DNA from: Microcaldota archaeon
GTDB lineage: Archaea > Micrarchaeota > Micrarchaeia > Anstonellales > Anstonellaceae
DNA: 45,330 nt
NCBI GenBank assembly: GCA_018304295.1
Contig: JAGVWK010000031.1
Span: 1-45,330 of the forward strand
Direction: 5' to 3'
This document shows positions 29,183-40,790 of the stretch, piece after piece (the stretch's first letter is position 1; the number at the start of each line of letters is the position of its first letter). Made by a program: the position numbers and the translations under genes. The notes below the pieces were generated by a model, which saw only the letters and a program-made list of their open reading frames with translations, was not told where the DNA came from and did not search any database.

Positions 29183-30478
29183 ATGGCAAAAGTTGAATGG
29201 TACGCTGATTTTGTGGATGAGGGGCATTCGCCTTTAAAAGACGACATTGTTGCGCTTTTTTATTTTGAGCCTGCAGCGGGCATAAGCAAAAAAGAGGCTG
29301 TTGGAAGGATTGCATCCGAAAGCTCAACAGGCACGTGGACAACGCTTTTCACAATGCCCCCGCGCATGAAAAAGCTCATGGCAACCGCATTTGAGATAGA
29401 CGGAAACTTCGTGAAAGTCGCATATCCGATTGGGCTTTGGGAGGAGGGGAATGCGCCGCAGCTTCTTTCAGGAATTGCGGGGAACATTTTTGGCATGAAG
29501 GCGATTGAGAATTTGAGGCTTGTTGATGCAAGCTTTCCGCATGCGTATGTGAGGAACTTCAAGGGTCCCGGATGCGGGATGGAGGGCATACGCAGGATGA
29601 TGAAGGTGAAAAAGCGCCCCCTTACGGGCGCAGTGCCAAAGCCCAAAGTTGGGTTCTCTGCTGCAGAGCATGCTGCGATTGGGTATGAGACATGGATGGG
29701 CGGCTTTGATTTGGTAAAGGATGACGAGAATTTGACTTCAACGCATTTTAACCGCTTTGAAGAGCGCGTAAAGCTCATGACAAGGCTGCGCGAAAAGGCG
29801 GAAAAAGAAACAGGGGAAGAAAAGGATGCGCTCATAAATATCACCGCGCCGGTTGCGCAAATGGAAAAGCGGGCAAAAATGCTCCATGAGAACGGATGGA
29901 GGTATGCAATGGTGGACGTTGTGGTTGCCGGCACTTGCGCAGTTCAGCACATGCGCGAGGTTTTGGCGGATTATGGGATGGCGATGCACGCGCACCGTGC
30001 AATGCACGCATCCTTTGACCGCAACCCAAAGCACGGCATTACAATGCAGTTTTTGGCAAAAATGCACAGGCTTATCGGGGTTGACCAGATACATGCGGGC
30101 ACTGCGGTGGGCAAGCTTGTCGGGGACAGGAAGGAAGTGCAAAGCGTTGCGAATGTGCTTCGCGAAAAAGTTACAAAGGCAGAGGGGAAGATGCTCCTTA
30201 GGCAGGAGTGGGGCGGCATAAAGGGGGCATTTCCTGTATCTTCCGGCGGGCTGCACCCTGCACTTGTGCCTGAGGTAATGGATATATTCGGGAACGAATG
30301 CGTAATACTTGTGAGCGGCGGGATACACGGGCACCCCAAAGGAACGCGTGCTGGAGCAAAAGCCTCAATGGACGCGATGCATGCGAAAATGGATGGAAAG
30401 ACGCTTGAGGAGGCTGCAAAAAAAAGCGCGGAGTTGCGAGCGGCGCTTGAAAAATGGGGCTACCTGAAGCCCAGATGA
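29183..30478 (+). CDS. rbcL: Form III ribulose-1,5-bisphosphate carboxylase large chain
   Basis: A 431-residue archaeal RuBisCO that fixes CO2 onto ribulose-1,5-bisphosphate to give two 3-phosphoglycerates. Active-site parts are intact: STGTWTTL near residues 48-55, KPKVGFSA, the carbamylated Lys179 with Asp181 and Glu182 (GGFDLVKDDE), HAHRAMHASF, loop 6 GTAVGKL, and SGGIHGHPKGT. In archaea this form usually works in nucleotide salvage, turning AMP- or nucleoside-derived ribose into 3-phosphoglycerate rather than in a Calvin cycle. The other enzymes of that route (AMP phosphorylase, ribose-1,5-bisphosphate isomerase) are not in this window. It overlaps the convergent phosphodiesterase gene by 19 bp. 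Confidence 0.96.
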   Translation: MAKVEWYADFVDEGHSPLKDDIVALFYFEPAAGISKKEAVGRIASESSTGTWTTLFTMPPRMKKLMATAFEIDGNFVKVAYPIGLWEEGNAPQLLSGIAGNIFGMKAIENLRLVDASFPHAYVRNFKGPGCGMEGIRRMMKVKKRPLTGAVPKPKVGFSAAEHAAIGYETWMGGFDLVKDDENLTSTHFNRFEERVKLMTRLREKAEKETGEEKDALINITAPVAQMEKRAKMLHENGWRYAMVDVVVAGTCAVQHMREVLADYGMAMHAHRAMHASFDRNPKHGITMQFLAKMHRLIGVDQIHAGTAVGKLVGDRKEVQSVANVLREKVTKAEGKMLLRQEWGGIKGAFPVSSGGLHPALVPEVMDIFGNECVILVSGGIHGHPKGTRAGAKASMDAMHAKMDGKTLEEAAKKSAELRAALEKWGYLKPR

Positions 30479-33159: not shown

Positions 33160-34341
33160 ATGTCGTATAAGGAAATAATCTCAGTGCCGGGCATAAAGCC
33201 CGTGCTTTTCACGCTGTTTATGGTGAGCTTTGGCTTTGGGGTAATACTTCCAATGCTCCCTTTTTACGCGCTATCGCTTGGGGCAACGCCTTTTGAGCTT
33301 GGGATGCTCACTGCCGTTTTTGCGTTCATGAGCCTTGTTTTCTCCCCGATTATGGGAAGGCTTGCGGACCGCTTTGGAAGGCGGGTGATACTGCTTGTTG
33401 GCACGTGCGGCTTTGCGGTTTCCTACCTGCTTTTTGCGTTCACGGATTCTCTTGCAATGGCGTTTGCCGCGCGTGCGGTTGAGGGCATTGCGGCAGCCGC
33501 GATGTTCCCTGCGTGCATTTCGCTTATCTCTGATTTCACAACGGAAATGCAAAGGGGAAAGGCAATGGGGCTTGTGAGCATGGCGTTTTCAGTTGGGTTC
33601 ATTGCAGGGCCTGCATTTGGCGGGCTTGCATCCTCCTTTGCGGTAAAGGACGCGTTTTTGCTTTCGGCGTTTTTTGCAGCCTGCAACTTTGCGTCCATTG
33701 CGCTGCACATAAAAGAGCCGAAGGAAAAGGCTGAAAGCAAGGACATTGCAACGCAGGAAATCGGGCTTCTTTCACACATCAAATCCCCGCTTCTTTTTCT
33801 TTTCCTCTCAAGCTTCATGGTTGCATTCATGATAGGGGGCATTGATGCCGCCCTTGCGCTTTATACAGGGGAGCAGATGGGCTTTTCCTCAACGCAAATA
33901 GGCATTGTTTTCACGTATATAGGGATACTCATAATGGCAATGCAGCTTGCAACCGGCAGCCTTGTGAACAAATACGGTGAGATAAGGCTGATAAAATGGG
34001 GGCTTTTGCTTTCCGGCGCTGGCTTTTTCCTGCTCATGTTCTCGCAAAGCTGGCTGCTTCTGATGCTTGCGCTGGCGGTATTTGTGTGCGGCAACGCGCT
34101 TGTGTTTCCCTCGGTTACGTCGCTTATCACAAAGAAAGTGCACGGAAAAAGGGGTGCGGTGCTTGGGCTTGTTTCCTCCTTTAACTCCCTTGGGCAGATG
34201 CTTGGGCCACTTGTTGGCGGGCTTTTGTACGGGATAAGCCATCAGCTTGCGTTTCTTGGGATGGCGATTATTATATGGGCTTATTGGATATTATTTTCGC
34301 TATTTGGGGCGAAAAAGGCTGAAGAGAAAAGGGAAGTTTAG
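33160..34341 (+). CDS. MFS transporter, drug-efflux type
   Basis: A 393-residue 12-helix major facilitator. Motif A is clear between helices 2 and 3: GRLADRFGRR near residues 67-76. The pattern FGFGVILPMLPFYALSLGA in helix 1 and the GPAFGGL motif in helix 5 fit the TetA/Bcr-like proton-coupled efflux group. Substrate is unknown. It lies 62 bp after the antiporter, in the same direction, and ends 4 bp into the convergent Pro-rich gene. Nothing suggests a defect. Confidence 0.88.
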   Translation: MSYKEIISVPGIKPVLFTLFMVSFGFGVILPMLPFYALSLGATPFELGMLTAVFAFMSLVFSPIMGRLADRFGRRVILLVGTCGFAVSYLLFAFTDSLAMAFAARAVEGIAAAAMFPACISLISDFTTEMQRGKAMGLVSMAFSVGFIAGPAFGGLASSFAVKDAFLLSAFFAACNFASIALHIKEPKEKAESKDIATQEIGLLSHIKSPLLFLFLSSFMVAFMIGGIDAALALYTGEQMGFSSTQIGIVFTYIGILIMAMQLATGSLVNKYGEIRLIKWGLLLSGAGFFLLMFSQSWLLLMLALAVFVCGNALVFPSVTSLITKKVHGKRGAVLGLVSSFNSLGQMLGPLVGGLLYGISHQLAFLGMAIIIWAYWILFSLFGAKKAEEKREV

Positions 34342-35789
34342 GATGCAATCGCAAGGCACAAATCCATCAGAGCCAGCAGCCTGCGCCGTTTTTTATTGTT
34401 TAGGTTGGGGTGCGCCTGCAAAAATGCAAGCAGTTTTTTGTAAAGCGACAGGTAGCGGGCTTTTTGTGCAGGCAGGCGCCCGTTTTTATCCGGGCGCAGT
34501 TGGCCGTGCCAATATGCATCGCGCGCGGCAGGCTTGCCTGAACCGGCAAAAGGATTAAACCCGCCTTTTGAATCGCTCAAAATGCCGTCAAAATCAAAGC
34601 CAAGTGTTATGCATGTTTCCCTTGCGCGCCTTTCTGCGTCCCTTGCACGTTTTTCTTCTGCTTTCCTTCCCGATTTTGCACTGCTTTTTGTAGCCGGTGG
34701 TTGTCCGCCGCTTTTTGGCAGGCTGCCGGCATGGTTGCCCCCTGCCGAATCTTCATTTGCAAAAGTGTTTCCCTCTTTTGCAGCATTCCCATTTGAGTTG
34801 GCATGATGGAAGTTTGGCAACGCAGTAGGAGGAGATTGGGCTTCGTAACGCTTGGGTGCCTGCTTGTTTTTTGCAAAACTGGCGCCATCAGGCTCATAAT
34901 CGGCACGCGGAGCGGGCTTGCCGCCAAAAAAGGGCGGCGCAAGGGACCATTGGAAATCAGTGGCATTGGAGTCAGTTTTTTTGCCGCTTGCAGGTTTTTT
35001 GTAAAAGCCCGCAGAATGCCTTGCGGATTCGCTGCCAATGGGAACTATCCTGCCAGGCGCTGGCGCAAAGAAGCGCGCGGGCGCATTTGCTTGCGGATTG
35101 GAAGGGATTTCTTGCGGCGGTTTGTGCCTGCTTGCTCCGCCAGGGGATGCTTGGACGGGCTTAAGAAAATCCGGGGCATAAAGCACTACGATGGATTTTC
35201 CGGCGTTTGGGGAAACCGGCAGATGGGATGGCGCTGGTTGGAAGGCATCGGCAGCATAAAGGGCTGCGTTGGCGGTTGCAGCAGGGCCAACTGCGTTGTT
35301 GGCATGCAAAAAAGCCGGGCTTTCGGGCTTTTCTGCAGCAGGTGCCTGCGCGGAATCTTTTTGCGGCGGCTGGGAAGAAACAATCTCGTGCAAAATAATT
35401 GCATATTTTTGGGGCATATCGCCTGCAACAGGCAACGGGAGCATTGCGTTTTCCAATGGGTTCTGTCGTGTTTGCTCTTGCGGTGCCACTGCAGGCGCGT
35501 TTGGAACCGGCACGATTGCCATCTGCAGGCTTTGTTGGGCGCCGGGTTTTGCTGCAGGCTGCTCTTTGGTGGCTGCGCCTGAAGCAGGGATTTCAGTTTT
35601 TGGCTGGGGGGACCGCAAATCCAGCTTCATGAAATCCAAAAACGTGCCTGAATTCCTGCCGCATGCTGAGCAGTTGCCGCCAGCGCAGCCAATGCATCCT
35701 CCCGAACCTTGCGGCTGCAGCCTAGCGAAAAACCCGGCCTGCTGTCTGCGCGTAGAAGACGGGACCGGGGTTGCTATTACTTCGGGCAT
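34338..35789 (-). CDS. Pro/Ala-rich protein with N-terminal Cys cluster, unknown function
   Basis: A 483-residue protein of low complexity. Residues 31-46 hold a Gly/Cys cluster, SGGCIGCAGGNCSACG, a possible metal or Fe-S site. Residues 60-370 are rich in Pro, Ala, Gln and Ser and probably disordered, with short repeated hydrophobic islands (AIVPVPNAP, YAIILHEIV, SIVVLYAPDFL) about 50-60 residues apart. The C-terminal 110 residues are Lys/Arg-rich and likely folded (RARETCITLGFDFDGILSDS, then RYLSLYKKLLAFLQAHPNLN). No signal peptide is seen. It is the second gene of an operon with the 129-residue Cys-motif protein, behind a tandem DtxR-type operator. No known family recognised. Confidence 0.7.
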   Translation of the reverse strand: MPEVIATPVPSSTRRQQAGFFARLQPQGSGGCIGCAGGNCSACGRNSGTFLDFMKLDLRSPQPKTEIPASGAATKEQPAAKPGAQQSLQMAIVPVPNAPAVAPQEQTRQNPLENAMLPLPVAGDMPQKYAIILHEIVSSQPPQKDSAQAPAAEKPESPAFLHANNAVGPAATANAALYAADAFQPAPSHLPVSPNAGKSIVVLYAPDFLKPVQASPGGASRHKPPQEIPSNPQANAPARFFAPAPGRIVPIGSESARHSAGFYKKPASGKKTDSNATDFQWSLAPPFFGGKPAPRADYEPDGASFAKNKQAPKRYEAQSPPTALPNFHHANSNGNAAKEGNTFANEDSAGGNHAGSLPKSGGQPPATKSSAKSGRKAEEKRARDAERRARETCITLGFDFDGILSDSKGGFNPFAGSGKPAARDAYWHGQLRPDKNGRLPAQKARYLSLYKKLLAFLQAHPNLNNKKRRRLLALMDLCLAIAS

Positions 35790-35809
35790 TCAAAGACCTA
35801 AGGTTGTTA

Positions 35810-36199
35810 TCACTTGTATCTTTCGTATATTTGCGTAAATGCATCGTTTGCATGCGCAGAGAGAACGGTTGCAACTATTCCGGGGAGTTCCGGGTGCACG
35901 CCCTTGTCTTCCAAAACGATTCCCCGGGCTGCCAAAAGTATCTGTGTGAAATTTTTTTGCAGTTCCGGACAAGAGGCGCTTGCGCCTTCAGCATTGAGAC
36001 TGAGGCAGAGGATGGAAAAATCCCTCATCATTCCCACAAGGCCTTTTTCGCCAGTTGCAGGATTACCCTCTATTTTATGCTTAAGATAGGGAGGCAGCCC
36101 AGCAAGCTTGAGCGTAACGCCGCAGCCAAGCCTGCAGGTAGAGCACCCTGCCTGTGCGTTTGCTGCGCTTGCTGCGCTTGCTGCAAAAGATATTCCCAT
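35810..36199 (-). CDS. Cys-motif protein, 129 residues, unknown function
   Basis: First gene of the operon controlled by the DtxR-type operators. The N-terminus MGISFAASAASAANAQA is Ala/Ser-rich and weakly signal- or leader-like without a basic start; it is followed by GCSTCRLGCG (residues 18-27), a CxxCxxxC cluster. The rest is helical with two more Cys (ILCLSL, ASCPEL). The downstream partner also opens with a Gly/Cys cluster. Iron binding, a leader-plus-core peptide or an Fe-S scaffold are all possible; none is shown. It stops 20 bp before the Pro-rich gene. Confidence 0.7.
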   Translation of the reverse strand: MGISFAASAASAANAQAGCSTCRLGCGVTLKLAGLPPYLKHKIEGNPATGEKGLVGMMRDFSILCLSLNAEGASASCPELQKNFTQILLAARGIVLEDKGVHPELPGIVATVLSAHANDAFTQIYERYK

Positions 36200-36216
36200 C
36201 TTTACACCACATTATG

Positions 36217-36246
36217 TTAGGTTAGCCTAATTTAGGTGTGCCTAAA
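36217..36246. promoter_or_regulatory. Two tandem DtxR/IdeR-type operators
   Basis: TTAGGTTAGCCTAA (36217-36230) and TTTAGGTGTGCCTAAA (36231-36246) are both TTAGG-N4-CCTAA, centres 15 bp apart. This is the known recognition pattern of DtxR/IdeR regulators and archaeal relatives. The sites lie between the divergent starts of the Cys-motif operon (36199) and the regulator (36291). For the operon they cover the expected TATA region; for the regulator they lie just upstream of its TATA box (about 36259-36267). Metal-dependent repression of the operon and self-control are the likely result. Confidence 0.85.
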
Positions 36247-36290
36247 AATAATGCCGAGAATTTATAAGGCTTGCTGGCTGAATGTGTGCA

Positions 36291-36770
36291 ATGAGAAAGA
36301 AGTTCAACCTTGCAGAGGAGGAATACCTCAAGGCAGTGCTTGCGCTTTCTGGCAAAAATAAGGCTGTGAGGACAAAGGATGTTGCAAATGCCCTTGGGCT
36401 TGCCCCCGCCTCCGCAACCCAGATGCTTGAGAAGATGGCAAAAAAGAGGCTGCTGCGCCATTCGCCCTACAAGGGGGTGGAGCTTACGCAAAAGGGCAGG
36501 GAGGATGCGGAGGCAGTTCTTCGCCGCTACCAGCTCTTGGAGCGATTTTTCATTGAATACCTCAGGATAAGCCCAAGCGAGGCTGCGCATCAGGCCTGCC
36601 TTATGGAACATTTCATTTCAAAGGAGACACAGAGGCGCATTTGCCAGATTATGAAGCACCCGGAAAAGAGCATGGGAAACAAGCCCATGCCAAAATGCAG
36701 GCTGGAGAAGGACTGTGATTCATGCATGGAGAAATTCCCTGCGCCCAAGGCGGGCAGGCTTCTTCTTTAG
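36291..36770 (+). CDS. DtxR/IdeR-family iron-dependent transcription regulator
   Basis: A 159-residue metalloregulator. The winged HTH is RTKDVANALGLAPASATQML (27-46) followed by the wing. Primary metal-site residues of DtxR match: Cys103, Glu106, His107 in ACLMEH. A Cys there favours iron over manganese. Ancillary-site residues Glu84 and His100 are also present, while the usual His79 is Tyr80. The C-terminus has an extra cluster CRLEKDCDSC and no SH3 domain. ATG 36291 fits a leaderless mRNA from the TATA box at about 36259-36267; ATG 36282 is an alternative. It is divergent from the Cys-motif operon across two perfect operators. Confidence 0.9.
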   Translation: MRKKFNLAEEEYLKAVLALSGKNKAVRTKDVANALGLAPASATQMLEKMAKKRLLRHSPYKGVELTQKGREDAEAVLRRYQLLERFFIEYLRISPSEAAHQACLMEHFISKETQRRICQIMKHPEKSMGNKPMPKCRLEKDCDSCMEKFPAPKAGRLLL

Positions 36771-40196: not shown

Positions 40197-40790
40197 ATGA
40201 AAATATTTGTCATTGCATTGCTTGCCGCCATGCTGCTTTTGTACGGGTGCGCCGCAAGCGGCGATGGCGCGCAACAGCCGGCTGCTGCGCAGCAGAACGG
40301 GCAGGCAGGAGCAGGCGCCCAGGCAGGTGCTGGCGGGGGGAATAGTGGCACAGGCGGGCAGGAAAATGCCACGCAGCAAATGCCGCCAAATGGCGGCAAC
40401 TGGGTGGGGCAGGGGAATGCAAGTGCTGGCACTGGGCAGATGGCTGGAGGCAATTGGAATGGAACCGGCAATGCGAACGGGACGGAAAATAGCACGCAGG
40501 CAGAGCCGACGGGTATTGTGAGGGAATTCACCATCCACGCAAGGATTTGGGAGTTTGAGCCGTCCACAATTGAGGCTGACGAGGGGGACACAGTGCGCAT
40601 AACGCTTGTGAGCGAGGACGTTTCGCACGGGATATTCATTCCACAGTTCGGCTTTGACCTTAAGGCAGGCGCAGGTGAAAATGCAACTGGAGAATTTGTT
40701 GCAGGCAGCAAGGGCACATACGCCTTCAGGTGCAATGTGTTCTGCGGGGAAGGGCATATGGGGATGGTGGGAACGCTGGTTGTGAATTAG
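40197..40790 (+). CDS. CuA-type cupredoxin lipoprotein
   Basis: A 197-residue lipoprotein with a lipobox (LLLYGCAAS, Cys18), a Gly/Ala/Asn/Gln-rich linker (about 20-105) and a C-terminal cupredoxin. The cupredoxin has a full CuA site: His144 (VSHGIF), then Cys179, Cys183, His187 and Met190 (CNVFCGEGHMGM), as in cytochrome oxidase subunit II. There are no subunit II membrane helices and no oxidase genes nearby, so it is a free CuA electron carrier or a copper-delivery protein. Two TTATAAT boxes lie upstream (about 40158-40164 and 40175-40181). The next gene starts at the base after its stop. Confidence 0.88.
   Translation: MKIFVIALLAAMLLLYGCAASGDGAQQPAAAQQNGQAGAGAQAGAGGGNSGTGGQENATQQMPPNGGNWVGQGNASAGTGQMAGGNWNGTGNANGTENSTQAEPTGIVREFTIHARIWEFEPSTIEADEGDTVRITLVSEDVSHGIFIPQFGFDLKAGAGENATGEFVAGSKGTYAFRCNVFCGEGHMGMVGTLVVN

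Follow-up and report, generated by a model that had tools for sequence, protein, structure and literature searches.

A DtxR/IdeR-family switch over a probable iron-starvation accessory module in a micrarchaeal genome

INTRODUCTION

The closest described systems to the locus presented here are the DtxR/IdeR regulons, with which it shares the family of the regulator, the operator sequence and iron transporter genes (FTR1 and FeoB) among its predicted targets. A 14-bp consensus, TTAGGNNNNCCTAA, has been proposed for IdeR sites that are occupied by a single dimer (PMC8464063). The locus differs from these regulons in being archaeal, in possessing a regulator that lacks an SH3 domain, ends in a Cys-rich tail and has a changed ancillary metal site, and in its predicted main target, which is an undescribed operon of two genes, designated P1 and P2.

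Likenesses are also apparent to the Cys-rich proteins that accompany ferrous iron transporters. FeoC is a Cys-rich FeoB accessory with the motif CxxGxCKxCP; it depends on its Cys residues to be fully functional, and a [4Fe-4S] cluster forms in it (PMC8749426). The cores of the P2 Cys clusters in the window species and one relative, CAGGNCSAC and CPGGLCPGC, fit CxxGxCxxC, and FeoB co-occurs with the operon in relatives. P2, however, is 300-570 aa in length and mostly predicted to be disordered, without a winged-helix domain. PF12669 likewise represents a Cys-cluster protein encoded next to FeoB, but it is a small membrane peptide, whereas P1 and P2 are much larger and give no PF12669 match. Clusters of NifX-type and MinD-ferredoxin genes share loci with P1-P2 in two relatives; they are absent from the locus described here, and none of their members is homologous to P1 or P2.

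Iron acquisition and its regulation in small-genome uncultured archaea are almost unknown, and a full-text literature search returned no paper that joins DPANN or Micrarchaeota with both FeoB and DtxR. What the locus offers is an operator of defined sequence, two protein families still without a name and a predicted regulon, made up of FTR1 and P1-P2 and, in relatives, of Feo. It is situated in a 45,330-nucleotide stretch of DNA, referred to below as the window. The genome from which the window derives is designated G000, and other genomes of the same phylum are designated G001, G005 and so on.

RESULTS AND DISCUSSION

Operators and organization of the locus

The features of the locus are listed in Table 1. 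Two operators, separated by 1 bp, are situated between a plus-strand DtxR-family gene and the divergent, minus-strand P1 and P2 genes, which are themselves 20 bp apart. The original prediction, made from the letters of the window, had described two adjacent sites at 36217-36246; two perfect sites are indeed present, the last base being 36245. It had also recognized in them the DtxR/IdeR pattern, and the published consensus bears this out: bases 1-14 of the IdeR/DtxR consensus are reproduced in operator 1, and both operators match the redefined consensus (PMC8464063).

Table 1. Positions in the window of the features of the regulator-P1-P2 locus
Feature	Positions	Strand	Remarks
P2	34338-35789	-	ORF, 483 aa; Pro/Ala-rich, mostly predicted disordered; N-terminal Cys cluster
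P2 Cys cluster CIGCAGGNCSAC	35661-35696	-	Residues 32-43; G005 counterpart CQICPGGLCPGC
P1	35810-36199	-	129 aa; predicted helical; belongs to an undescribed family with five known members
P1 N-terminal Cys cluster CSTCRLGC	36122-36145	-	Residues 19-26
Operator 1 TTAGGTTAGCCTAA	36217-36230	none	Perfect TTAGG-N4-CCTAA; -18 to -31 from P1 start codon
Operator 2 TTAGGTGTGCCTAA	36232-36245	none	Perfect TTAGG-N4-CCTAA; -33 to -46 from P1 start codon
TATA-like element TTTATAAG of the regulator gene	36261-36268	+	15 bp downstream of operator 2
Two-domain DtxR/IdeR-family regulator	36291-36770	+	159 aa, from second ATG; first ATG at 36282

A first-order Markov model of window sequence predicts 0.03 perfect sites for the window itself, 0.7 for the genome and approximately 6e-6 tandem perfect pairs per genome. 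The whole 1.05-Mb draft genome contains three perfect sites, two at this locus and one elsewhere. Searches for tandem sites in 301 genomes of the phylum gave matches in three, each directly beside a DtxR-type gene, and a reversed control pattern gave none in the same 301 genomes. One-mismatch operators elsewhere in the window genome and in G005 were present mostly at chance-level counts and were not interpreted.

The regulator

The regulator contains both the winged helix and the metal-binding/dimerization domain that define the DtxR/IdeR/MntR group, with matches to Fe_dep_repr_C (PF02742, 1.8e-20) and Fe_dep_repress (PF01325, 9.4e-16), so that its earlier assignment to the DtxR/IdeR type is upheld. 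It aligns over 125 residues with solved IdeR, DtxR and MntR chains. The second ATG is the better start, since the G005 orthologue begins there; numbered from it, the Cys/Glu/His triad is C103/E106/H107, and from the first ATG it is C106/E109/H110. This triad had been proposed to match the iron site of DtxR. In the alignment, the Cys, Glu and His of the primary metal site are kept as proposed, but Glu occupies the position of DtxR Met10. At the ancillary-site positions His79, Glu83 and His98 the regulator has Tyr, Glu and Ala, respectively; the ancillary site of DtxR is therefore not retained, and the protein is referred to here as DtxR-family rather than as a canonical DtxR.

The C-terminus of the regulator (36720-36770) carries, in place of an SH3 domain, the Cys-rich tail CRLEKDCDSCM, which is kept in G005 and may be an additional site for metal binding or redox chemistry. 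The regulator gene is likely to be autoregulated, with either sign, because its TATA-like element, assigned from archaeal promoter spacing and a leaderless start at 36291, is situated 15 bp from operator 2.

The P1 and P2 proteins

P1 gave no family match in Pfam or NCBIfam, ferritin and FeoC included, and P2 none in the same collections; FeoC models from both sources matched no P1 or P2 member. The earlier observation that the operon products match no familiar family is borne out, and the description of both as starting with a Gly/Cys cluster was approximately right, given the residues at which the clusters lie (Table 1).

The structural model of P1 is all-helical, with a mean pLDDT of 67 (moderate confidence), and a PDB fold search with it returned no recognizable fold, the best match having an E value of 0.73. 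A likeness of the P1 C-terminus to ChaB (1sg7, E value 0.54) was not significant and was absent in Pfam, and it was dropped. Five genomes, all from one archaeal order, contain a P1 gene (the window genome, G005, G057, G071 and G037). Each P1 was recovered by a profile of the other four, with E values from 5e-4 to 1e-14; in this leave-one-out search the window P1 scored 1.4e-8 and the next window ORF 0.1. The G057 member emerged from a profile search and inspection of its weak matches, that of G071 was found with a three-sequence profile, and that of G037 was recognized by its position before P2. A match in G042 was to a frame with neither operator nor iron neighbours and was taken as noise. 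Conservation resides in the helical C-terminal 100 residues of P1, the Cys spacing differing among members.

The P2 model has a mean pLDDT of 39, with a helical hairpin at residues ~438-482 (pLDDT ~72-88). The codon signal of P2 is weak but positive, at 0.066 compared with 0.38 for the MFS gene; the two ORFs opposite P2 gave -0.12 and 0.03. The Cys clusters of the window and G005 P2 share the pattern CxxCxGGxCxxC. The alignment score of these two proteins, 74, is not above those of shuffled sequences (46 +/- 7, largest 81), and the window P2 is tied to that of G005 by position, Cys cluster and overall design only. The P2 proteins of G005 and G057 have in common a central motif, IGxYTYEDIxxxxWLRKxYGH, which a search of the 301 phylum genomes found in eight at E < 1e-6, all of the same order. 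Neither this search nor a C-terminal P2 profile found the window P2, which may be degenerate or fast-evolving, as its missing central motif and weak codon signal suggest. Searches of viral, plasmid and phage families with P1, the regulator and the P2 motif yielded no relatives.

Across relatives, P2 varies in its Cys clusters and in its company. The G057 protein has CxxxCxxCxxC clusters with weak Fer4 matches (best E value 0.009, below the cut-off). A second type of module, in G002, G031 and G021, has a P2 with HxxxCxCxxC clusters and small partners with HxH and a late Cys that the P1 profile did not recover; the loci concerned are L107, L106 and L109, respectively. In these three genomes and in G055, neither operator nor DtxR gene was found near P2 (the contigs are short), and the small partner is a different one. 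P2 alone is therefore not iron-specific. A D-2-hydroxyacid dehydrogenase gene adjoins the module in G005 (L006 36-854) and G055 (L108 4718-5225).

The cassette in relatives

The occurrence of the P1-P2 pair together with its operators in relatives, on which the original prediction depended, was found: a DtxR gene is adjacent or near in all five P1 loci, and an operator-like site precedes P1 in each, a perfect one in three of the five. The family is known from these five members only, and the contigs are short. G005, which belongs to the same family but another genus, has the regulator-P1-P2 triad with two perfect operators (spanning -4 to -38 from the P1 start) in a different genomic place. 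Its regulator is 64% identical to that of the window and its P1 31% identical, the P1 alignment scoring 101 as against 26.6 +/- 4.6 in shuffles.

The more distant loci add iron transport genes. In G057, from another family of the same order, one perfect operator separates P1 (135 aa) and P2 (309 aa) from a divergently oriented DtxR-FeoA-FeoA-FeoB series. In G071, two one-mismatch operators come between FeoB and P1, which P2 follows, and the same contig carries DtxR, a NifX-type gene and MinD-ferredoxin ATPases. In G037, DtxR, a one-mismatch site, P1 and P2 are followed by a gene of the NifX type and then by two for MinD-type ATPases, with ferredoxin motifs in at least one of the two. FeoB thus accompanies P1-P2 in G057 and G071; within the reach of the sequence, the loci of the window, G005 and G037 have none, and a local search found no Feo gene near the window cassette.

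Clusters of NifX-type, MinD/ferredoxin ATPase and DtxR genes were noted at L110 3384-8454 and L111 1-5167, FeoB also being present in G071. We take the clusters of G037 and G071 to be reminiscent of the orange-protein cluster of Desulfovibrio.

In G098, from another family of the same class, twin perfect operators directly precede a DtxR-FeoA fusion gene, followed by FeoB. These twin sites (C29 9495-9534; L021 1501-1540) are, judging by their position, likely to be an iron-uptake operator, and they support the reading of the operator as an iron signal in the phylum.

A third operator at an iron permease gene

For the window genome, regulon and Feo gene content were assessed by pattern and family searches. 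The third perfect site is on another contig, where the start of an FTR1 iron permease gene (PF03239, 1.8e-50) follows it at a distance of 48 bp. Together with the FeoB and FeoA genes beside the cassette in relatives, this site favours the predicted link to iron rather than to metal in general.

In G001, a sister species of the same genus, the same uvrC-like gene is followed by an orthologous FTR1 gene, upstream of which the TATA-like stretch is retained but the operator is missing. The regulator was not found in G001 at the threshold used, and the 48 bp that separate the MFS gene from ribB in this species contain no cassette. Regulator, cassette and FTR1 operator are thus all in the window species and all missing in its sister, in what is a single comparison of two incomplete genomes. 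The FTR1 gene of G005 also has no operator.

Proposed function and alternative explanations

The operators in the window overlap or abut the TATA-like element of P1, and the sites of G057, G071 and G037 stand in the same relation to the best TATA-like stretch before P1; these elements were called by inspection and consensus counting rather than by mapping. Given this placement, P1-P2 would be expected to be expressed at low iron. We regard the locus as a DtxR/IdeR-family switch over an iron-starvation accessory module, with a probability of roughly 0.6, the biochemical function of P1 and P2 being inferred. In these archaea, the pair probably constitutes a new accessory to iron acquisition, tied to Feo uptake or Fe-S delivery.

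By this account, the metal-loaded regulator dimer would occupy the P1 TATA region, block TBP/TFB and so repress P1-P2; when iron is scarce it would leave the operators, and P1 and P2 would be made together with the iron importers. Less certainly, the two proteins might act in the cytoplasm with the importer. On a long flexible tether, the FeoC-like Cys cluster of P2 might hold Fe(II) or an Fe-S cluster, with the helical P1 as its partner, so that the pair would receive or relay incoming iron or tune the transporter. P2 may, by analogy, work as the Cys-rich Feo accessories do while standing outside the FeoC and PF12669 families. If its Cys cluster binds iron, P2 would represent an independent archaeal answer to the role of those accessories.

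Several other explanations deserve consideration. P1-P2 might, instead of aiding uptake, belong with the NifX-type protein and the MinD/ferredoxin ATPases and work in Fe-S assembly or in a sensing complex built on Fe-S clusters, low-iron induction then rationing these clusters. The gene order in G037, where P1-P2 directly precede the NifX-type and two MinD-type ATPase genes, the presence of the same genes on the G071 contig, and the clusters of G057 P2 with their sub-threshold Fer4 matches are all in keeping with such a role; it nevertheless seems unlikely, in that the window, G005 and G057 are without such genes next to P1-P2 and Feo genes are present in two contexts. Members of the DtxR family of the MntR type respond to manganese, and a module that both responds to and handles another metal, most likely manganese, must also be weighed. 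The best NCBIfam scores of the regulator are to MntR models, albeit far below cut-offs, the residue at the DtxR Met10 position is acidic as in MntR, and the DtxR ancillary site is not kept. The Cys at the DtxR Cys102 position is, however, retained in the P1-linked regulators, those of G037 and G071 included, and the linked transporters are FTR1 and FeoB, which makes this explanation improbable.

IdeR activates bacterial ferritin when iron is plentiful, and the original prediction had entertained iron storage by the operon. A regulator that activates at plentiful iron, with P1-P2 binding the excess for storage or detoxification, would suit Cys-rich proteins under a predicted iron regulator and a long disordered P2 that could hold metal. 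The position of the operators, overlapping or abutting the TATA-like element in all five P1 loci, is on the other hand that of a repressor and predicts expression at low iron; the other genes with perfect sites encode importers (FTR1, FeoB), neither P1 nor P2 has a Pfam match, ferritin included, and P1 has no PDB fold match. Storage is accordingly less likely than had been supposed, and we consider it quite improbable. Least weight is given to P1 as the precursor of a secreted or modified peptide made at low iron. The G005 sequence CSTCKLTSAC, with its CxxC-x5-C spacing, recalls subtilosin-type sactipeptides, and the gene pair does lie inside a predicted iron-regulated operon, yet conservation is in the helical C-terminal 100 residues while the Cys spacing is variable. 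The sactipeptide reading was rejected, no radical-SAM maturase having been recognized among the listed neighbouring ORFs of the P1 loci.

A further reading can be offered tentatively, namely that P1-P2 might form an undescribed iron-handling machine of DPANN-type archaea that exists in two versions. The iron version would be of the CxxC type, under DtxR and joined to Feo and NifX/MinD-ferredoxin genes; the second would be of the HxxxCxCxxC type with its different His/Cys partner. In both, a small helical protein would be paired with a long disordered one whose metal-binding Cys clusters are interchangeable, and the two could lead incoming metal to cofactor assembly.

Other genes in the window

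Two further genes in the window were noted. A RuBisCO large-chain gene (PF00016, 3e-78) is present at 29183-30478 in this small archaeal genome, and 40197-40790 encodes a putative lipoprotein whose weak cupredoxin-like match (PF13473, 1.3e-5) falls just short of the cut-off.
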